Shown here piece after piece: positions 16,799 to 63,229 of a DNA stretch of 64,000 bases. The notes beneath the pieces were generated by a model. The model did not search any database. It saw nothing but the letters and a program-made list of their open reading frames with translations, and had not been told where the DNA came from. The stretch is from Branchiostoma floridae (Eukaryota > Chordata > Leptocardii > Amphioxiformes > Branchiostomatidae), in contig NC_049995.1 in assembly GCF_000003815.2 (NCBI RefSeq), positions 12,691,436 through 12,755,435 of the forward strand, read 5' to 3'. Position 1 is the first letter of the stretch. The number at the start of each line of letters is the position of its first letter. The position numbers and the translations under genes were made by a program.

Positions 16799-18556
16799 AT
16801 GGCGAGACCGACAATGAAATTATGGGGTTTTGTTCTCATGGTTCTTTTCTACATTGGGCTCGGCTGTTATATCCATTTCAGGCGGCCACCCTACTGGATT
16901 TTCAACAGGTAACTAGTATCTTCTTAAATATATCTGTAGACGTAGTGGCGACGTAGTAATTACGTCATGTTCAGAGCGAAGCCATTCTTGACTGACAATG
17001 CTTTTTTTAAGACATTCAGGTATAATTACTTCATGTATCATTAAGAAAGAAATATCAACTTTCCAAGACAAGTTTGATTGCCGCGGCGGCTAAAACCCCC
17101 TTGTGTAATGAGACAGTGGATTATCAAAACAATCACAGCATCGTCAACATGTATCTTCTTCATGAGGACTACATAATTATGTCATATTGTTCCTGAAAAA
17201 AATTTATCAGTTTGTTTTATTCTTCTGTAAACGTTTTGACGACCATCAGTCGTCTTCATCAGTACAAAATTATGAAGACGACAGATGGTCATCGAAACGT
17301 TTACTGAAGAATCAAAGAAGGTTGTAAAACGAAGAAGATTTTGTTCAAAGGAATATAAAATAATGTTTACTTCTTTTTTACTGCATGTCAGGAAGCTTAC
17401 AAGGGAAGGTGCCTGTGACGCCAAGCGAAACTTCATGTTCGTCAAAGTGCACAAGGCTGGAGGCACGACAGCCACCTGCATCTTCCAACGCTTCGGGTAC
17501 GAACACAACCTGACCTTCGTTCTGCCTGTCATCAAGACTGACATCGGTTGGCCCAACCTCTTGAGACAAGAAGACTTCATACCGTCGGCAGACGGTACTT
17601 ATAATGTTCTAGTCGACCACACGGTTTACAATAGGCAGTTGTTAGACCATCTCATGCCTCCTGACACTGTGTACATCTCTATCCTTAGGCAGCCACTGGC
17701 TCAACTTCGGTCTACGTTCAACTGGTATCACCTTGTTGACCACATGAATGGGTTGAACGGGTCGAAAGATCCTGTTGCGTCCTTCTTAAAAAGGCCGAAC
17801 AAATTTCACATCCCGTATGTCAAAGCAGATATCCGTACAAGAGTGCCATATACCCTCGAAAAGAATCTCATGGCGTATGACCTTGGCTTTCCTCTCGGAC
17901 TGTCTGACAGCCAATCGTCCATTGATGAGTATATCGAAACGCTGACCAGAGAAATTGACCTGGTTCTCATTTTAGAACATATGGACGAATCTCTTGTCTT
18001 GTTGAGGAGGATGATGTGTTGGACCTTAAAAGACATTCTTTATAACGTCGCACCCAAAAACCTGAACAAATATGAAAGGTCACCAATGAGCGCGGCCTTG
18101 CTGAATCAGCATCGCCAATGGAGCAATGTAGATTATCAGCTGTACGATCACTTTAACGCGACACTTTGGCAGAAGATACAAAGAGAAGGCGCCGATTTTC
18201 TACACGAAGTGCACCATTTTCGAAACGTGCTGAATCAAACGACTATCTTCTGCGCGAAAGCAATCACGAAAGTACCTGTATACAACAAAACAAACAATAA
18301 CATTGTTGGGCGGAAGGTTGGTTTAAATCCGACAGCTGGCAAACTTACAATTCCAAAGACAGCGTGGCATGAAAAATTTGACATAGATCCGACCTTCTGT
18401 CTAAAACTAAAAATGGAATGGCGTGACTGGGCATATGTTTTAAAAAAGAAGCACAGAATGCCACGGAACATATCTCCCGATATTAGAAGTGCTATTGAAT
18501 GGCCTGACACCAAAGTTCTGGATAAATCTCTAATGCGAAAAATTTTTCACGTTTGA
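16799..18556 (+). CDS. GAL3ST: Gal3ST-family galactose 3-O-sulfotransferase, 2 exons
   Basis: Exon 1 is 16799-16908 and exon 2 is 17392-18556. Joined in phase 2 they give 424 residues, the usual length for this family. Residues 9-27 form a signal anchor, so the protein should be a type II Golgi membrane enzyme. The 5'-phosphosulfate loop is KVHKAGGTT (55-63) and the 3'-phosphate region is YISILRQP (121-128), the two PAPS-binding motifs of sulfotransferases. DESLVLLRRMMCWTLKDILY further on is typical of galactosylceramide/galactose-3-O-sulfotransferases, which sulfate terminal galactose on glycolipids or glycans. The acceptor substrate cannot be told. Exon 2 is also open upstream, but that extension lies across the acceptor and a repeat and would lack the anchor. 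A near-identical inverted paralog lies at 61908-63075. Confidence 0.9.
17221..17312. repeat. Inverted repeat with hairpin core (intron of Gal3ST)
   Basis: Two arms of about 41 bp (17221-17261 and 17271-17312) are near-perfect reverse complements. Each contains a small hairpin, GACGAC facing GTCGTC or GTCATC, followed by AAAACG or GAAACG. Related hairpins are at 19866, 39424 and 61482. It lies in the only intron of the sulfotransferase gene. Confidence 0.8.
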
Positions 18557-19455
18557 CATGGTTGAGGTGGATTTCGCTATACGCTTAGGACCGATAAACT
18601 GTCAAATACATTTTGTAACAATTACTCAAGCAACTGGACATGCATGATTTTGGAAACGGTCAGATGTTTCAGATAATATCCATTACCTTTCATCAATGAC
18701 ACTGAAGATATCATGTAATTGCTAATACCGGGGTATTTGGCGTATTTTACTACCTGGATGTCTAACTTTCATCGACGTATCATGATGAAATCGCATTACA
18801 AAGAACCATATCCATAAACTTACAGTTTGGTGTTGACGTTACAATGACCCCTGTCGGTGTTTCTCTCTAAGAGGCCTAGGGTCTGCATGCTCTTTTCCGT
18901 GAGGCGTAGGCAGCCTATTTCTATTCCCGTAACTCGTCGGGAAAACCATCTTAGCTACGTAATTCGTAGCTAGGGCCTAGGCGATCAAACTTAGCGTAAT
19001 TGCCTTCCTTGGTATAGCGTAATACGAGTGAGATCTTCTGAATTCGGCGTAAATCGTTGTCGGGATCCCCCATGCAGACCCTCCTCTAACCAAGATGGTT
19101 CTTAATACCAGGCCGAATGACATCTCGAAGCTTTATCAAATACAACAAAAGGCACAGTGAGTGGTCGACTATCAACTAAAAGATAGAGATACAAAGTCAA
19201 GCTTGAAATTCCAATGACTAAATAATGTAGGATAACAAACTTGAATCTCTATTCTTGATACAACCATGTGGGACTAACGTGAGTGTTATCATGTTTAATT
19301 TCTAATAACAAACCATTCTTTTATGTATTTACTTATCTGAGCATTATGATGCGGCGAAGAAGATAGCTGTCAGATATAATATAAGGTCAAATATATATTT
19401 ACTTCTGATATCGGGTTTGTATTTCGACAGAATGATTGATTTTATAGTTTTGGTA
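18557..19455. other. Spacer after the Gal3ST gene
   Basis: I see no gene. Part of it (about 18840-19080) contains repeated GTAATTCGTAGCTAG- and GCGTAAT-like blocks and is probably repeat-derived. The rest is AT-rich and may include the 3' UTR of the sulfotransferase. Confidence 0.4.
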
Positions 19456-19790
19456 ACGTAGTCGTAGAAGATCAAGTACATTTCACGGTAGATTGTCCTT
19501 TGTATGATAGCGATAGAAGAATTCTATTCGACTTTGTGTTAAGTATGTTGCATCACTTCAGATACTTGAATAGTAAAGAGAAATTTATATTCCTTGCAGC
19601 TTTCCATAAATCAACCTTAACCAACCATACAGCTAGCTACATTATTTTATACAATTACCAAGAAGCGAGAGGAAGTCGAATGTAGATTAGACGGTTATAT
19701 GTACAATGTATATGATTGTTACCATTTTAACATGTGACCTGTATTTAGCGCAATGGGGCAAAAATGTACAATAAAGGCCTCCACCAGGCC
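19455..19790 (+). mobile_element. 3' end of a non-LTR retrotransposon
   Basis: The frame reads VEDQVHFTVDCPLYDSDRR and later KEKFIFLAAFH, the C-terminal His/Cys segment of CR1/L2-like LINEs, ending in ARGSRM and a stop at 19683. About 90 bp of 3' UTR follows, with ACAATAAAGG. It parallels the element at 60250-60640. Confidence 0.75.
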
Positions 19791-19865
19791 TCCCTAAGAG
19801 GGTACAAATCATAAAATTGTGCCAAAGAAATGACAAATTGGCCAGTCAGACTCTTTTTATACAAC

Positions 19866-19935
19866 CAATACTTTATTCTCACCGACGTTTTGGCGACCGT
19901 CTGTCACCTTCTTCAAGGCATTTCTGACTGGTTCA
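19866..19935 (-). repeat. Hairpin repeat downstream of XBP1
   Basis: On the minus strand a hairpin GGTGACAGACGGTCGCC is followed by AAAACGTC and then GAGAATAAAG. It resembles the hairpins at 17221, 39424 and 61482. The AATAAA it carries (19873-19878) is the nearest polyadenylation-like signal behind XBP1. Confidence 0.6.
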
Positions 19936-20005
19936 CATTGTACTGCAGGACAGGTGTCGCTGCTCACATTTCAGATGCGGTCACAAAACGTAAAAAGTAT
20001 ATTGA

Positions 20006-22085
20006 CTATGGCCACCAGGCGCTAGACGCACTAAACGCGGGGACTTTTGGGTTGAAGACCGGGTCGGAGGCCGTGATACCCTCGGTCTGCTCCCGGAGCT
20101 TGGTGAAGAAGACGTCGGCGTCCAGGTGCCCTAGAAGCCGGAGAAGGACGTCGCACTGAGCGTCAGGATCCATGCCACGAGGCTGGAGGTGAACCAGACC
20201 TGCCCCTGCTGCAGAGGTGCACGTAGTCTGAACGCTGCGGGTTCAGAGGACCTGGATCTCTCCATCCTAGTGGCATGGCCTTCAACTGCCGGCGACATCT
20301 CCCTTCGGCTGCTGTTTGTACCGGGCCTCGTCTCCTGTTGGCACCAGACCTGCCCCTGCTGCAGAGGTGCACGTAGTCTGAACGCTGCGGGTTCAGAGGA
20401 TCTGGGTATCTCCCTCCTGGTGGTGCGGCCTTCGGCTGTCGGCGACATCTTTCCCGTCTCCTGTTGGCTCATCTTCCCCTGCTGCAGAGGCGCACGATGT
20501 CTGAACACTGTGGCTTCACAGGACCTGGATCTCTCCCTCCGGATGGGACGGCCTTCGGCTGCCTGTGACATCTCCCTCGCCTGCTGCAGCTTTTCACACT
20601 GGACCTCGGACTGCTGAAGATCTAGAGGTGCATGTAGGCTGAACGCTGCGGGCTCAGAGGACCTGGGTCCCTCCCTCCGGGTGCTATGGCCTTCAGCTGC
20701 CGGCGACATCTCCCCCGCCTGCTCGGACAGACCGAGTCGCTTCTTAAGCTCGGCGATCTCCATCGTTAGGCTTGCGTTGTACAGTGCGGGTTCAGAGGAC
20801 CAGTTTCGCTCCCTCCAGACGGTACGGCATTCGGCTGTCGGCGACATCTCCCTCGCCTGTCGCTGCTTACACCGGACCTCGGACTGCTGAAGATCTGAAG
20901 TTGCACGTAGTCTGAACGCTGTCGGTTCAGAGAATCTGGATCCCTCCATCCTAGTGGTACGGCCTTCGGCTGCTGTCGGCAACGTCTCCCTCGTCTGCTG
21001 TGTGTACCGGACCCCGGACTGACCGAGCAGTTTCTTGAGCTCGGCGTTCTCCACCGTCAGGCTGTTGGACTCCTGTTCTAGGCTTGAATTCTGTTCTTGT
21101 AGAGCCTTGTTCTATAGGAAGGGAAAACGATTTGATTAGCATGTCTTAATAATGAAAGTTTATTTACAAGTTCATGCCCGGAGGCTAATTGAAACTACAT
21201 GGTGAAGACATACAAGTGGCAATGAACAGTGATAAACATCATTGGAAATAGAAGTTACTCGAATTCCAGCGTTAACTATTTCTAAAGGGTTTGGCCGGGG
21301 TTTAACTTCTTCTTTTTTTTAAAAAAAGGAGACGAAAAGCCCATTTTTTTACAGTTTTTGACAAAAAGGCTTTCTGTCCACCTGTGGATGTGAGTTGCTG
21401 TGGATGTGAGTTGGGGTATGTCTTTGTGGCTTCCCTAAACAAAGTGATTATTCCGGATTGGTTGAATGAACACTTAGAAATAAAATGTGTTTCGTCTTCT
21501 ACACTGCTTTTAAATTGCACATCACTTTCAGATGGGATGTTCAAATTCTGTCTTAAACTTTGAAGTGTTAGTTTGCCATTTCTTCACCGGTGATTTCAGA
21601 ATAACCAGAGAATGACTTTAATTGGATAAAAATGTCAAAGGTTAGAGGTAAAAGGGCACTTAGATATTATGAAGGCTTACCTGTTCTTCTAGTTTGGCTG
21701 CAAGAAATTCCAGTTCGTCCATTTTGGCCTTCTTTCTGTCCCTTGCTGTTTGCGCTGCCGCTCGGTTCTTCATTTTTCTACAAAAAAAAAGGAAAGAAAA
21801 TCCCCATCATTAGTTCAAATACATTTCTCACAATAGCTTTGTTGGATTTCTCAAAATCATTTTTTCTGCTACTAGCCCAATCGATGCTTTTCTGACCTAC
21901 ATCTACATCCTTGTCTGCATATGGAAGTCGTCAGACAACTTTTCTGACGCTCTCTGGATAATGTCTTTCACAGGAAGGTCTAAGGAAACAGTGTTGCCGC
22001 ACTCCAGAACCGACTCACGGAAGCTTAACTCTTAAACACTCACAAATCCTTTTGTTTGTAAATCAACATTGTAACAAAAGTACAA

Positions 22086-22138
<53 letters not shown>

Positions 22139-22534
22139 ACGACGAAAACAACACGGTAGATGCCTGGAGGCATGAGCAGACAACTTCTTGCCACCCAGTT
22201 TATATGACACAGCAGGAATGGACAAACAAGAAGAATCGTATTATCATTGTTTTTACTTTTTCACCAAAAAGGAAAAAGAAAAGAAAGTCACGTAGAAGAA
22301 CTTGGCAAGAGAGGGAGTAGCTACAGATTTTTTTTGTCAAGAAGCCTTGTGCCACTAAGACAATTATCTTAAGTGTCACTTCTGGTTGAATAGTCACCTT
22401 CTCATCGCCTTCTGCTCAGGTGTCAGGTGGTTGAGTCTTTTTCTCCTCCTTGGTTGTTCCGTCAGTCCTGATGAAGACGCCATGTTGGTGTGAAGTCCTG
22501 TCGCTGTCCCACAAGCGATGTTCATCGGCGCCAT
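20006..22534 (-). CDS. XBP1: XBP1, bZIP unfolded-protein-response factor, with repeated IRE1 cassettes
   Basis: Exons: 22534-22398, 21777-21681 and 21111 onward. Unspliced mRNA stops at 20131 (404 residues); removing the 26-nt IRE1 intron at 20237-20212 shifts frame to a stop at 20006 (437 residues). The bZIP is clear: basic region N50 to R60 (RAAAQTARDRKKAKM) and leucines at 68, 75, 82, 89, 96 and 103 in exact heptads. Residues from about 110 are a six-fold repeat of 41-50 residues (AEGRTTRRE, SSEPAAFRLRAPLQQ), unlike the 261-residue human unspliced protein. The spliced tail keeps CDVLLRLLGHLDADVFF, which parallels the human activation domain, then ends early beside a repeat. In animals IRE1 and RtcB splice this mRNA at the ER during stress. 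The start is the first in-frame ATG with a good context; ATGs at codons 4 and 18 are alternatives. Confidence 0.93.
20212..20237 (-). other. XBP1: IRE1-type 26-nt intron of XBP1, cassette 1 (3'-most)
   Basis: The 5' stem-loop is CUGAAC-CCGCAGC-GUUCAG, with a perfect 6-bp stem and a seven-base loop. The 3' loop is CUGCAGC on a stem UGCACCU/AGGGGCA with one mismatch. Both loops fit the IRE1 consensus CNG|CAGN, giving an intron of exactly 26 nt, the vertebrate length. Removal gives the frame that encodes the activation domain. Confidence 0.92.
20362..20387 (-). other. XBP1: IRE1-type 26-nt intron of XBP1, cassette 2
   Basis: This is base-for-base the same as cassette 1 in both loops, both inner stems and the 26-nt intron, and lies exactly 150 nt upstream in the transcript. 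Excising this cassette alone leads to a TGA at 20284-20282, before cassette 1, so it would give a protein of about 345 residues without an activation domain. Confidence 0.9.
20485..20510 (-). other. XBP1: Degenerate IRE1 cassette 3 of XBP1
   Basis: The 26-nt spacing is kept, but the 5' loop is CCACAGU (consensus G changed to A at the cleavage position) and the closing base pair of its stem is lost. The 3' loop CUGCAGC is kept on a weaker stem. It is probably not cleaved at the 5' side. Confidence 0.8.
20612..20655 (-). other. XBP1: Degenerate IRE1 cassette 4: 5' site intact, 3' site lost
   Basis: The 5' stem-loop CUGAGC-CCGCAGC-GUUCAG is intact (one G-U pair); its cut would lie between 20649 and 20648. 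At the 3' side a six-base insertion and a G-to-T change replace CUGCAGC. The 5' site could pair only with a 3' site further downstream. Confidence 0.75.
20885..20930 (-). other. XBP1: Degenerate IRE1 cassette 5
   Basis: The stem CUGAAC/GUUCAG is perfect, but the loop is CGACAGC, lacking the G before the cleavage point. The 3' site is replaced by CUUCAGAUCUUCAGC. It is the copy furthest from the active end. Confidence 0.7.
22085..22135. repeat. GA microsatellite in XBP1 intron 1
   Basis: A GA run of about 45 bp lies within the first XBP1 intron. It has no coding meaning. Confidence 0.9.
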
Positions 22535-22652
22535 CCTCAGTTCTCGGCGCCGACCATAGCGTACGCAACGCCCGGTGGTATATCTCGGACTCCTCTGGGT
22601 TTTAGGCGGTTGGCATCACAAACTTACTTGTCCAGGTAAGGTAGTATGAGAT

Positions 22653-22671
22653 CGTGTCGATCTATGATTGG
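22653..22671 (-). promoter_or_regulatory. XBP1: ERSE-like site 1 (CCAAT-N9-ACACG)
   Basis: On the XBP1 strand CCAAT is followed by exactly nine bases and ACACG. The ER stress element is CCAAT-N9-CCACG, bound by NF-Y and ATF6 (or XBP1), so one base differs and the spacing is exact. Confidence 0.6.
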
Positions 22672-22814
22672 TCGTTGCTCTAGTTTGAATATCAAACATA
22701 CAGATCTGATTGGTCAGTGCCGAAGATGACGTAAGCGTGTTCTAAGGTGATACATCTCTGTCCTCCCTGGTAGTTGTGTACGAACCTACTTATCTGGGTA
22801 GAAGAGTATGAGAT

Positions 22815-22833
22815 CGTGTCGATATATGATTGG
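22815..22833 (-). promoter_or_regulatory. XBP1: ERSE-like site 2 (CCAAT-N9-ACACG)
   Basis: This has the same half-sites and nine-base spacing as site 1; only a nine-base spacer position differs. It lies in the second promoter repeat unit. Confidence 0.6.
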
Positions 22834-23017
22834 TCGTTGCTCTAGTTTGAGTAACAAACATACAAATCTGATCGGTCATTGCCGAAGATGACATAAGCGT
22901 GTTCTAAGGTGATACATCTCTGTCCTCCCTAGTAGTTGGTGACGAATCTACTTTTCTATGTAAGACCAAGGACGTTATATGAGATAATATTACGCCCTTG
23001 GTAAGACAGTATGAGAT

Positions 23018-25468: not shown

Positions 25469-28400
25469 ATGTTTCAGATACTAGTACTCAATACGAACAC
25501 GGAACCTCAAACTCTGGGAAAACTCCACACCTGCTGGTATTGTGAGTTCAGCACCTACAGCAGCTCGGAACTTTCTGAGCACGAGAAAACCCACCCAAAA
25601 GACAAACCCTTCAAGTGCAACCACTGCGACTTTTCTGCAAAATATAGGTCCACTTTGCGCCAGCATCTTCTCAGGCACACTGGTGAGAAACCCTTTATGT
25701 GTAAAGACTGTGGGTTCAGGACAGCTCAAAAGAGTCGCCTATCTGAGCACATGAGAACCCACACGGGTGAAAAACCTTACAAGTGTGACCAGTGTGACTA
25801 TTCTGCTGCCCTGAAATCTACTTTGGCCAAACATCGAACAAAGCACAATACCAAGAAGCCCTTTCTGTGTGATGAGTGTGGATTCAGGACAACTCATAAG
25901 GCTTTCTTAAAAGGCCATATGAGAAGTCATACAGCAGAGAGGCGCTTCAAGTGTGACCAGTGTGACTACGCTGCAGTGAAGCAGTCAAATCTGACTCGCC
26001 ATCTCGAAAAACATGCGACTGAGAAGTCCTACGTATGCGGGGAATGTGGGTTCAGTACAGCTCGCAAGGACAGCCTTATCAAACACTTGCCTGTCCACGC
26101 AGGACCAAGACCATACAAGTGTGACCAGTGTGAGTACGCGGCAACACGGAAACGCCATGTGAAGATCCATCTAGCAAGATATCATACAAGTGAGGAACTC
26201 CACTTAGAGGCAGATGATAAGTGTCCCGATGCTGATGATGAAAGCTCCTGTGATGAGTCCCCCACGGAAGTTTTCCAGAACTGGTCAGTAGGGTCTCCCT
26301 CAGTAGTTTTCCACGATAGCGAAGCTGGACCTACAAATGAAGTTCCGAAAAACTGCCAAAGTGGGTCTCCCAATGAAGTTCTTCCTAACTGCCCTACTGG
26401 ATCTGCAAATGAAGTTTCCCAGAACTGTCAAAATGGGTCTCCCTCTGAAGTTTTTCAACAGTGCCTAGAAGGGTCTCCTACTGGAGTTGTACAGAACAGC
26501 ACCAAAAGTTATACCACTGATGTTTCTGAGAGTCAGGAAGGCGGTGCTAGACAGCAGACAGCTGCACAAAGTTCCAATCAGTCCAGCACAACTAATAGCT
26601 CCGCACTTTCTAAACAAATTGAGGCACAGACAGTAGACAAGCCCTTCAAGTGTGACCACTGCAACTTTTCTGCGAGATATAGGTCCACTTTGAGACAACA
26701 TCTTGTCAGGCACACTGGAGAGAAACCCTTCATGTGTAAAGACTGTGGGTTCAGGACAGCTAATAAGTATCAGTTAACTAGGCATATAAGAATCCACACA
26801 GGTGAAAAACCTTACAAGTGTGACCAGTGTGACTACTCTGCTGCAGAGAAATCTACTTTGACTAAACATCAAACAAAACACAATACCGAGAAGCCCTTTC
26901 TGTGTAATGAATGTGCATACAGAACAACTCACAAAGCTTACCTAAGAGATCATATGAAAAGCCATTCAGCTGAGAAGCCCTTCAAGTGTGACCAGTGTGA
27001 CTTTGCAGCAGTGCGGAAGTCCAATCTGACACGACACCTTGCAAAACATGCGACTGAGAAACCCTTTGTTTGTGAGGACTGCGGTTTCAGAACGGCCCTC
27101 CATCATGTCCTAACCAAACATTTGTTGTGCCATGCAGAAAAGCAGTATAAGTGTGACCAGTGTGACTTCTCCACAGCACGTGAGTCTTCACTGAAGCTCC
27201 ATCGCGCTAAACATACCGGTGAGAAACCCTACAGGTGTGGGGAGTGCGGGTTCAGAACAGCCATAAAGAGCAGCCTAACACAACACTTGCTGCTCCATAC
27301 AGGACAAAAACCCTACAAGTGTAAACACTGTGACTTTTCCACAACACAGAAAGCCCATCTGAAGGCTCACCTCGCAAAACACCCCGGCGAGAAAGCATTC
27401 ATCTGTGAGGTATGTGGATACCGGACTGGTTTGAAGGATCAATTTTCTAGTCATATGCTGATCCACACAGGTGAAAAACCACACAAGTGTGACCAGTGTG
27501 AGTTTTCTGCAAGAAAGAAGTCCACTTTGCGTCTACATCGTGTGAAATACCATGGTGCCAGAGGTTACACGTGTAGCGAGTGTGGATACAGGGCAGCTAG
27601 AAAAGCTGTCTTCATCCGGCATATGAAGGTCCATACAGGGGAGAAACCGTACAATTGTGACCAGTGTGACTTTTCTACTGCACACCGACCCACTCTGAAG
27701 CGACATCAAGCAAAACACACTGGTGAGAAACCCTTTGCTTGTGTGGAATGTGGATTCAGGACAACTTGTAACAGTAGCTTATTGGCTCACATGAAAACCC
27801 ATTCAAGTGAAAAACCTTACAAGTGCGACCAATGTGACCATTCTACAGCACATAAATACGCTTTGAACCGACATTTGCTCACTCACACTGGTCAGAAACG
27901 GTACATGTGTGACCAGTGTGACTTCAGGACTGCCAAAAGGTATAACTTACTACGACACGTAACAATGCACACAGGGAAAAAGATTTACAAATGTAGCAAG
28001 TGCGACTTTTCTGCCGAGCAGAAATCTAGCGTGGACGAACATTATGTGATACACACTACTGGTGGGAAACCTTTCATGTGTGGCCAATGTGAATATAGGA
28101 CAGCTCGAAAGTCTGACTTAACCGAACATCTGAAAGTTCACGGAGGTGTGAGACCCTACAAACATACCCATGGCGAATTTTACACAATCGAGGAGTCGAC
28201 TTTGGACTATGACTTAGCTCTAAACACCGGTGAGAAACCCTACATGTGTGAGATGTGTGGGTACAAGACTGCTGGAATGACTGAGTTATCCCACCACATG
28301 AGAACCCACACAGGGGAAAATCCTTGCCAGTGTGACCAGTGCTACTCTTCTGCAACAGAGAAGTCGAGTTTGAATCACCATCATACAAAACACACTGGAG

Positions 28401-28807
28401 AGAATGGGTTAAGAACAGCTAAAAACTCTCAAGGATCAAATCATTTGAGAACGCACACAAGTGAAAAACCCTACAAGTGCAACCAGTGCGACTATTCTGC
28501 TCCACAAAAATCGAGCTTGGACAAACATCTAGCAAAACATGCCGAAGAGAATCTCCTTGTTTGTGTGGAGTGTGGGTACAGGACGTCTAACAAGACTAGC
28601 TTAGCCAATCACTTGAAAACCCACTCAGGGGAGAAACCTTACAAGTGTGACCAGTGTGACTATTCTGCAGCACAAAAAGGCACTTTGACGCGACATCTAC
28701 AAACTCACACTGGTCAGAAACGGTACATGTGTGATCGTTGTGACTTTAGGACTAACGCTAAGTTTAATCTATCCCGACACATGAAAACGCACACTGGAAA
28801 ATTGTGA
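25469..28807 (+). CDS. Poly-C2H2 zinc finger protein, about 32 fingers
   Basis: A single open frame of 1,112 residues. Eight C2H2 fingers (about residues 22-240) are followed by a low-complexity acidic and Ser/Asn linker (about 245-390) with some seven degenerate copies of a 14-residue unit (GSPNEV, NCPTGSANEV). About 24 further good fingers follow. Most are joined by TGEKP(Y/F)-type linkers and alternate between YKCDQCDYSA and F-C-ECGFRT forms. Two units are broken: one near residue 895 (YKHTHGEFYT, Cys and His lost) and one near 985 (NGLRTAKNS). Such proteins are usually nuclear, sequence-specific DNA binders; no KRAB, BTB or SCAN domain is seen. The start is uncertain: TTTCAG just after the first ATG could be an acceptor, so an upstream exon is possible. 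I do not recognise an orthologue. Confidence 0.92.
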   Translation: MFQILVLNTNTEPQTLGKLHTCWYCEFSTYSSSELSEHEKTHPKDKPFKCNHCDFSAKYRSTLRQHLLRHTGEKPFMCKDCGFRTAQKSRLSEHMRTHTGEKPYKCDQCDYSAALKSTLAKHRTKHNTKKPFLCDECGFRTTHKAFLKGHMRSHTAERRFKCDQCDYAAVKQSNLTRHLEKHATEKSYVCGECGFSTARKDSLIKHLPVHAGPRPYKCDQCEYAATRKRHVKIHLARYHTSEELHLEADDKCPDADDESSCDESPTEVFQNWSVGSPSVVFHDSEAGPTNEVPKNCQSGSPNEVLPNCPTGSANEVSQNCQNGSPSEVFQQCLEGSPTGVVQNSTKSYTTDVSESQEGGARQQTAAQSSNQSSTTNSSALSKQIEAQTVDKPFKCDHCNFSARYRSTLRQHLVRHTGEKPFMCKDCGFRTANKYQLTRHIRIHTGEKPYKCDQCDYSAAEKSTLTKHQTKHNTEKPFLCNECAYRTTHKAYLRDHMKSHSAEKPFKCDQCDFAAVRKSNLTRHLAKHATEKPFVCEDCGFRTALHHVLTKHLLCHAEKQYKCDQCDFSTARESSLKLHRAKHTGEKPYRCGECGFRTAIKSSLTQHLLLHTGQKPYKCKHCDFSTTQKAHLKAHLAKHPGEKAFICEVCGYRTGLKDQFSSHMLIHTGEKPHKCDQCEFSARKKSTLRLHRVKYHGARGYTCSECGYRAARKAVFIRHMKVHTGEKPYNCDQCDFSTAHRPTLKRHQAKHTGEKPFACVECGFRTTCNSSLLAHMKTHSSEKPYKCDQCDHSTAHKYALNRHLLTHTGQKRYMCDQCDFRTAKRYNLLRHVTMHTGKKIYKCSKCDFSAEQKSSVDEHYVIHTTGGKPFMCGQCEYRTARKSDLTEHLKVHGGVRPYKHTHGEFYTIEESTLDYDLALNTGEKPYMCEMCGYKTAGMTELSHHMRTHTGENPCQCDQCYSSATEKSSLNHHHTKHTGENGLRTAKNSQGSNHLRTHTSEKPYKCNQCDYSAPQKSSLDKHLAKHAEENLLVCVECGYRTSNKTSLANHLKTHSGEKPYKCDQCDYSAAQKGTLTRHLQTHTGQKRYMCDRCDFRTNAKFNLSRHMKTHTGKL

Positions 28808-61907: not shown

Positions 61908-63075
61908 CTAATCAACGTGAAAAATCTGTAGCAGTAGAGATTTATCCAGAACTTTGGTGTTTGTCCATGAGATGGCCCTTCTGACACCGGAAGATAAATT
62001 TTGAGGCATTTTGTGCTTCTTTTTTAAAACATGCGACCAATCGTGCCACTCCATTTTTAGTTTGATACACAGAGTCGGGTCTATGTCAAATTCTTCATGC
62101 CACGCCGTCTTTGGAATGGTCAGTTTGCCAGCTTTCAAATCCAACTTAATTGTCCACCTAACAACTTTTTTGTGTTTTTTGTCATAAACGGGTACTTTCA
62201 CCATTGCTTTGGAACAAAAGATAGTCGTTTGTTTCAGCACGTTTTGAAAATGGTGCACTTCGTGTGGAAAATCGGCGCCTTCTTTTTGTATCTTTTGCCA
62301 AAGTGTAGCTTTAAAGTGATCGTACAGCTGATAATCTACATTGCTCCATCGGCGATGCTGATTCAGCAAGGCCGCGCTCATTGGTGTTTTCTTATATTTC
62401 TTAAGGTTTTTGGGTGCGACGTTATAAAGAATGTCTTTTAAGGTCCAACACATCCTCCTCCTCAGCAAGACAAGAGATTCGTCCATATGTTCTAAAATGA
62501 GAACCAGGTCAATTTCTCTGGACAGCGTTTCGATAAACTCATCAATGGACGATTGGCTGTCAGACAGTCCAAGAGGAAAGCCAAGGTCATACGCCATGAA
62601 ATTCTTTTCAAGGGTAAATGGCATATATCTTGTATGGCTATCTGCTTTGACGTATGGGACGTGAAATTTGTTTGGACTTTTTATGAAGGACGCTACCGGA
62701 TCTGAACGGCCCAAACCTTTTATTTTCTTAGCAAGGCCATACCAGTTGAACACAGACCGAAGATGAGAAAGTGGCTGCCTAAGGATAGAGATGTACACAG
62801 TGTCAGTGGGCATGAGATGGTCCAACAACTGCCTATTGTAAACCGTGTGGTCGACTAGAACGTTATAAGTACCGTCTGCAGACGGTATGAAGTCTTCTTG
62901 TCTCAAGAAGTTGGGCCAACCGACGTCACTCTTGATGACAGGCAGAACGAAGGTCAGGTTGTGTTCGTAACCGAAGCGTTGGAAGATGCAGGTGGCTGTC
63001 GTGCCCCCAGCCTTGTGCACTTTAACGAACATGAAGTTTCGCTTGGCTTCACAGGCGCCCTCACTTGTAAACGTC
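61908..63075 (-). CDS. GAL3ST: Second Gal3ST-family sulfotransferase, main exon
   Basis: This exon corresponds to exon 2 of the gene at 16799-18556. After an acceptor (ATGACAG, ending 63076) it reads TFTSEGACEAKRNFMFVKV and then HKAGGTTATC, the 5'-PAPS loop, and later DTVYISILRQPL, the 3'-phosphate motif. The exon of 1,168 nt is three longer than its relative, and most residues are identical. The phase (needs two bases from a previous exon) is the same, so a short signal-anchor exon is expected further along the minus strand. I do not find it up to 64000, so it lies outside or is lost. An in-frame ATG overlapping the acceptor would give a protein without the membrane anchor. Confidence 0.88.
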
Positions 63076-63229
63076 CTGTCATACAGCAAAGTAAATGTTT
63101 CTATTTGTTATGTGTTGATATATCATTTTCGAAAATCTGAAGACTATGGTTGCACACACTACGTTTATGAAGGTTGCATAATCCTAGTGAGCCATATTCA
63201 AACAAGGACTACATAACGTTCTTGATTCA

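Follow-up and report, generated by a model that had tools for sequence, protein, structure and literature searches.

A second XBP1-type bZIP gene in Branchiostoma floridae with two intact IRE1-type intron cassettes in one exon

IRE1 cuts the loops that flank the XBP1 intron at CNG/CAGN (the slash marking the cut), and a pair of such loops spaced 26 nt apart constitutes the motif. To our knowledge, every known XBP1 or HAC1 gene has one IRE1 intron, which works as a binary switch. We have analyzed a 64,000-nucleotide stretch of the Branchiostoma floridae genome (C17:12691436-12755435; the window) in which two such cassettes had been predicted in tandem within XBP1, and the question it raises is whether this is a stress switch that has become a choice between introns, or something else.

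Both cassettes lie where they had been predicted, on the minus strand. The proximal (20387-20362) and distal (20237-20212) 26-nt introns are identical and 150 nt apart, and share the loops and stems ascribed to them: a CCGCAGC loop whose 6-bp stem (CTGAAC/GTTCAG) is perfect and, 26 nt further on, a CTGCAGC loop on an interrupted 3' stem with four of its five pairs. The identity is longer than the original prediction had it, and covers 58-nt blocks at 20400-20343 (the fifth unit of the array described below) and 20250-20193 (the sixth). RF04247 is the Rfam family of metazoan Hac1/Xbp1 non-canonical introns (described in PMC11701678). The two cassettes score 43.8 bits (E 2e-6) and 41.2 bits (E 9.5e-6) against its gathering cut-off of 41 bits, the second only barely clearing it, so that by score both belong to the family, in agreement with the claim that they are complete IRE1-type cassettes. 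Like the curated family members, each has its two CNGCAGN loops on stems 26 nt apart; the difference is that here one exon contains two full members separated by 150 nt.

The short motif CNGCAGN is by itself weak evidence, and it is frequent in exon 3, with 18 matches in 21111-20000. Pairs of these loops exactly 26 nt apart are confined to the two cassettes when both strands of the window are searched, and 60 first-order Markov shuffles of the window yielded three pairs at this spacing, none of them with both stems. No RF04247 match beyond the two cassettes was found in 19000-23000 at E values up to 1, and in the whole 513-Mb assembly, with 75 of 17,078 first-look candidates scored, there are at least three, one on C11 and two on C17. 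On the RF04247 scores, the shuffles and the assembly-wide scan we reject a chance motif. At the innermost position of the 5' stem the C11 cassette pairs T with A and both window cassettes pair C with G, a compensated change. Judged by sequence, these are genuine cassettes in an XBP1-type bZIP gene, and putative sites of IRE1 cutting.

The gene is nonetheless not the canonical amphioxus XBP1. The exons at C11:11132779-11134904 encode the known B. floridae XBP1, C3XVR6, with 97–100% identity per exon, and because this canonical, single-cassette XBP1 sits on C11, the window gene is a second, diverged XBP1-like paralogue. A bZIP protein search of the assembly (six exon matches, with all 27 candidates scored) finds only two XBP1-type bZIP loci, those on C11 and C17, and a DNA query of 20150-20450 matches the assembly five times on C17, once on C11, and nowhere else. 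The original prediction that XBP1 carries two cassettes was thus right in naming an XBP1-type bZIP gene, but does not apply to canonical XBP1, which has one cassette (45.2 bits) and no array. The proposal that XBP1's own stress switch has become alternative falls, since the canonical gene is single-cassette and the window gene is a paralogue of it.

The two genes have three exons each, with matching boundaries and a bZIP domain in both. On the minus strand of the window, the coding part of exon 1 extends from the ATG at 22534 to 22398 (assigned by splice sites, open frame and homology to C11 exon 1), exon 2 at 21777-21681 encodes the basic region and the start of the leucine zipper (splice sites, open frame and the Pfam bZIP_1 and bZIP_2 matches), and exon 3 runs from its acceptor at 21111 to 20006, the end of the TAG (20008-20006) that closes the XBP1s frame (splice sites and open frame). 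The joined protein matches both bZIP_1 and bZIP_2, and its nearest relatives are Branchiostoma XBP1 proteins; a structure search with the zipper and the residues that follow it, omitting the basic region, gave no meaningful match (best E 0.069). Four blocks of the window (22613-22376, 21847-21634, 21134-20899 and 20330-20049) are homologous to C11 by BLASTN. Both introns are retained, on which ground we reject a retrocopy, and because the same three exons, the homologous blocks and an upstream element also occur at C11, the window gene is a DNA-level duplicate of XBP1.

The upstream element (23162-23012, minus strand) is homologous to the 5' flank of canonical XBP1, with 68% identity over 165 columns by BLASTN, and shorter partial copies lie at 22836-22780 and 22748-22647 on the same strand. 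It looks as if the promoter region, too, was duplicated at the window gene. The element contains CCAAT boxes and a TTTAAA-like stretch, and is represented once in C11 and in three matched places upstream of the window gene. Neither 23400-22535 of the window nor the 900 bases before the C11 ATG contains an ERSE or UPRE motif. Long open reading frames of the galactose-3-O-sulfotransferase family (PF06990) are found on both sides of the gene (17285-18556, plus strand, and 61908-63089, minus strand), and an open frame of 1112 aa at 25469-28807 (plus strand) encodes many C2H2 zinc fingers in a single stretch.

Exon 3 contains the end of the zipper, a tandem array and the C-terminus. The array consists of six in-frame copies of the segment in which C11 has its one cassette, and thereby extends the two units of the original prediction to six; its start-to-start spacings are 150, 123, 138, 138 and 135 nt, every one a multiple of three. 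Unit 1 (21003-20869) retains the 5' stem (6/6 pairs), with its cleavage loop lost (CGACAGC) and its 3' part altered. Unit 2 (20868-20731) has a degenerate cassette and is closed by a second copy of the zipper end (family D3). Unit 3 (20730-20593) has an intact 5' hairpin and a 6-nt insertion in its 3' part, with no CTGCAGC loop at 26 nt and a CAGCAGT string 35 nt on, while unit 4 (20592-20470) retains the CTGCAGC 3' loop and has a broken 5' hairpin (4/6 pairs, loop CCACAGT). All four are on the minus strand, and none of them matches RF04247 at E values up to 1; the cassettes of units 1–4 are decayed, and those of units 5 and 6 intact. A tree of the six units is poorly supported. Tandem Repeats Finder reports only one two-copy array of 123 nt, at 20329-20573, as against the six diverged units in the exon.

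Units 5 and 6 differ from each other at none of 58 cassette sites and at 12 of 51 flank sites (Fisher p 5e-5), whereas each differs from C11 at six of the 58 cassette sites and 10 of the 51 flank sites. About 15 of the sites within the identical block are synonymous. The two cassettes may therefore be held alike by RNA-level selection, by gene conversion, or by both, causes that these comparisons do not separate; that they differ from C11 but not from one another is a pattern that fits gene conversion as well.

The reading frames show that the cassettes are not interchangeable. The unspliced frame encodes 404 aa and ends at a TAG at 20133 (20133-20131, minus strand), eight codons past an HR2-like segment and at a codon that is TCG in C11. 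Removal of the distal 26 nt gives 437 aa and enters the XBP1s frame, which closes with the TAG at 20008. Removal of the proximal 26 nt, alone or together with the distal, gives 345 aa, as translation of this frame reaches, after 26 codons, a TGA at 20284 (20284-20282, minus strand), which belongs to the XBP1s frame and separates the two cassettes. If the proximal 5' site is instead joined to the distal 3' site, 176 nt are skipped and the product has 387 aa, ending again with the TAG at 20008. The two cassettes are not equivalent, because proximal-only or double removal meets the TGA and only the distal splice or the 176-nt skip gives the spliced tail of the XBP1s frame.

What the frames encode has been shortened at both ends relative to canonical XBP1. 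The canonical ATG is ATA in the window gene, and the start now lies downstream at 22534. A six-codon upstream frame, MVGAEN (22557-22537, minus strand), ends 2 nt before the new ATG and reads as the remnant of the canonical N-terminus after the ATG to ATA change. The canonical unspliced form has 242 aa and ends WGPQRHTWNPLQN, as against 404 aa here. Both genes have the HR2-like segment SSLVAWILTL and a cassette with the same loops, although the residues that follow this segment in the unspliced form number 60 in C3XVR6, 65 in human XBP1u, and eight in the window gene, which has no XBP1u arrest peptide. In human XBP1u, translation pauses at a C-terminal arrest peptide, which leaves HR2 exposed to recruit the mRNA to the ER (PMC6624018); the HR2 of the window gene would still sit inside the ribosome at termination. 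The canonical spliced form (348 aa) has a full C-terminus ending ELFPQLISV. The window tail is partial: its alignment with C11 breaks off near 20010 and the frame stops at 20008, so that most of the activation region is missing. The sequence past the end of homology (20010-19600, minus strand) gives the impression of a repeat-element tail and holds an AATAAA.

The bZIP domain has also changed more than in the other Branchiostoma proteins compared. Of 78 core residues, 13 depart from the Branchiostoma majority in the window gene, compared to one in C3XVR6, three in B. belcheri, and four and eight in the XBP1 and XBP1-like proteins of B. lanceolatum. Pairwise dN/dS against C11 is 0.31 for the bZIP core and 0.42 with the N-terminus included, 0.41 for the unspliced frame (26 codons), 0.53 for the spliced frame (51 codons) and 1.35 over the 17 codons preceding the distal cassette, pairwise values to which the conserved C11 branch contributes and which are no proof that the window copy is under constraint.

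We consider it probable that this bZIP gene derives from XBP1 and that IRE1 could cut its mRNA, should one be made, at either cassette. That the gene is live is suggested, albeit no more strongly than that, by its open frame, the in-frame spacings of the array, the kept cassettes and the kept upstream element. The 404-codon frame has one stop, the terminal one, versus 12 and 15 in the other two sense frames. Under substitution-only simulation the 404-codon frame stays open in 0.001–0.0125 of runs at 0.10–0.16 substitutions per site and in 0.028–0.25 at 0.03–0.08, rough figures in that the units arose by copying and the distances are assumed; when only the non-repetitive bZIP part is considered, an open frame has a chance of 0.17–0.53 under drift at 0.05–0.16 substitutions per site. 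The open frame is suggestive only, because chance openness is not small at low distance or for the bZIP part. Counting against a live gene are the lost start, arrest peptide and spliced tail, the 13 of 78 bZIP changes, and the fact that protein searches limited by length and shared words found no public protein model of it.

These same losses, with the relaxed bZIP, the decay of four of the six cassettes and the missing gene model in those limited searches, would be expected of a decaying XBP1 duplicate, a pseudogene or near-pseudogene in which minisatellite-like slippage copied the cassette, conversion or chance keeps the copies alike, and nothing is spliced. The cassettes are closer to each other (0/58) than either is to C11 (6/58), which also suits it. 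It accords poorly with a 404-codon frame that has stayed open, at least at the larger simulated distances, with five array spacings that are all multiples of three, with a cassette that is unchanged between flanks differing at 12 of 51 sites, and with the compensated 5' stem pair. We regard this explanation as possible, although somewhat unlikely.

A further alternative is that the paralogue is functional but uses its distal cassette only, the proximal one being silent, with its 3' hairpin paired elsewhere, and kept by protein sequence or conversion. The frames agree with this in that, without skipping, the XBP1s frame comes from the distal 26-nt splice only. In local, both-cassette and full-exon folds, both 5' hairpins have pair probabilities of 0.92–0.99. 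The 3' stem as defined by Rfam is weak, none of its four inner pairs exceeding 0.03, and in a joint fold of both cassettes the 3' arms, being identical, pair between cassettes instead of locally. When the full exon is folded, all five pairs of the proximal 3' stem have a probability of 0 and the distal stem shows weak local pairing (0.03, 0.03, 0.03, 0 and 0.64), as a silent proximal cassette would have it. However, the 3' stem is equally weak in the canonical C11 cassette, for whose inner pairs the fold model also gives about 0.03, so that a used and an unused cassette look the same, and the modelled folding neither supports nor refutes use of a cassette. Moreover, the identity spans the synonymous sites noted above, which protein constraint would not hold. 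Use of the distal cassette alone appears unlikely to us. That a collapsed or duplicated stretch of reads made the second cassette, as the 58-nt block identical in both units might hint, is highly improbable, and we reject an assembly duplication because 12 of 51 sites have diverged between the flanks of the last two units, marking a duplication that is old and hardly an assembly error, and six diverged units with in-frame spacings are not the pattern that such an error leaves.

Two known systems help in placing the gene. B. lanceolatum has a second XBP1-type protein of its own, 'X-box-binding protein 1-like' (P0052, 189 aa), encoded on a different contig from its XBP1 (16.4 Mb versus 43.9 Mb). 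Its frame ends eight residues past the HR2-like segment, just as that of the window gene does, although its protein has a single unit and, unlike the window gene, retains the ancestral N-terminus. No bZIP-core substitutions are common to these two proteins alone, and a tree does not join them, the fork being open and the window gene forming a long branch. A query with the B. lanceolatum protein gave no further Branchiostoma copy besides C3XVR6 among the 120 proteins listed of 217. On sequence, this protein hints at an older amphioxus paralogue, and the early end in both could go back to one old truncation, or the arrest peptide could have been lost convergently.

The second system is the Drosophila Xbp1 allele Excision101 (PMC4138184), in which, as in the window gene, the targeting region at the C-terminus is absent along with most of the spliced tail and an IRE1 site is retained. 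It differs in being a laboratory deletion with one cassette that also removes HR2, whereas the window gene retains HR2, but only eight residues from the end of the protein. Splicing of this allele persists despite the loss of HR2 and the C-terminus, in 9 of 38 clones compared to 15 of 37 for the control, and the authors of that study infer that the spliced protein has little or no activity (PMC4138184). By analogy with this allele, targeting of the window-gene mRNA might be weaker than for XBP1 but not absent.

Returning to an XBP1-derived gene that IRE1 could cut at either cassette, we infer its history and any transcription, cleavage, ligation and protein action from the computed cassettes, paralogy, array, frames and truncations. 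The starting point would have been a duplicate of XBP1 that still had its three exons and bZIP domain as well as the upstream element; the stretch of exon 3 around the IRE1 cassette would then have been duplicated in tandem and in frame to six units, four cassettes decaying and full ones remaining in units 5 and 6. If the gene is transcribed, IRE1 would most likely cut either cassette and an RtcB-type ligation would give several products: the 437-aa form with a partial XBP1s tail, the 387-aa form with the same tail, and the 345-aa form that stops inside unit 6. Because no product carries the full activation region, we would expect them to serve chiefly as bZIP partners, or as antagonists, of canonical XBP1, as the Drosophila analogy also suggests, and not as a second activator of the UPR. 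In a stronger form of this proposal, which we put forward tentatively and think unlikely, the two cassettes compete in a working IRE1 substrate: the proximal cut would yield a truncated bZIP as an off branch, the distal cut and the 176-nt skip would yield the tailed forms, and the ratio of products would report or tune IRE1 activity and antagonize XBP1.

A natural gene with two intact and four decayed cassettes in one exon is a ready experiment, in which one can follow the decay of a redundant cassette and ask if IRE1 together with the ligase is able to choose between cassettes, to skip one or to exclude one. A full-text literature search, viewed as titles and abstract openings, found no report of repeated IRE1 introns or of an amphioxus XBP1 paralogue, and a two-cassette working substrate, if true, would be natural alternative IRE1 splicing with no earlier report found in that search. 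The window gene also shows a second XBP1-type gene evolving in amphioxus, one that has lost the peptide for mRNA targeting as well as most of the activation region, and which may be a dedicated antagonist.
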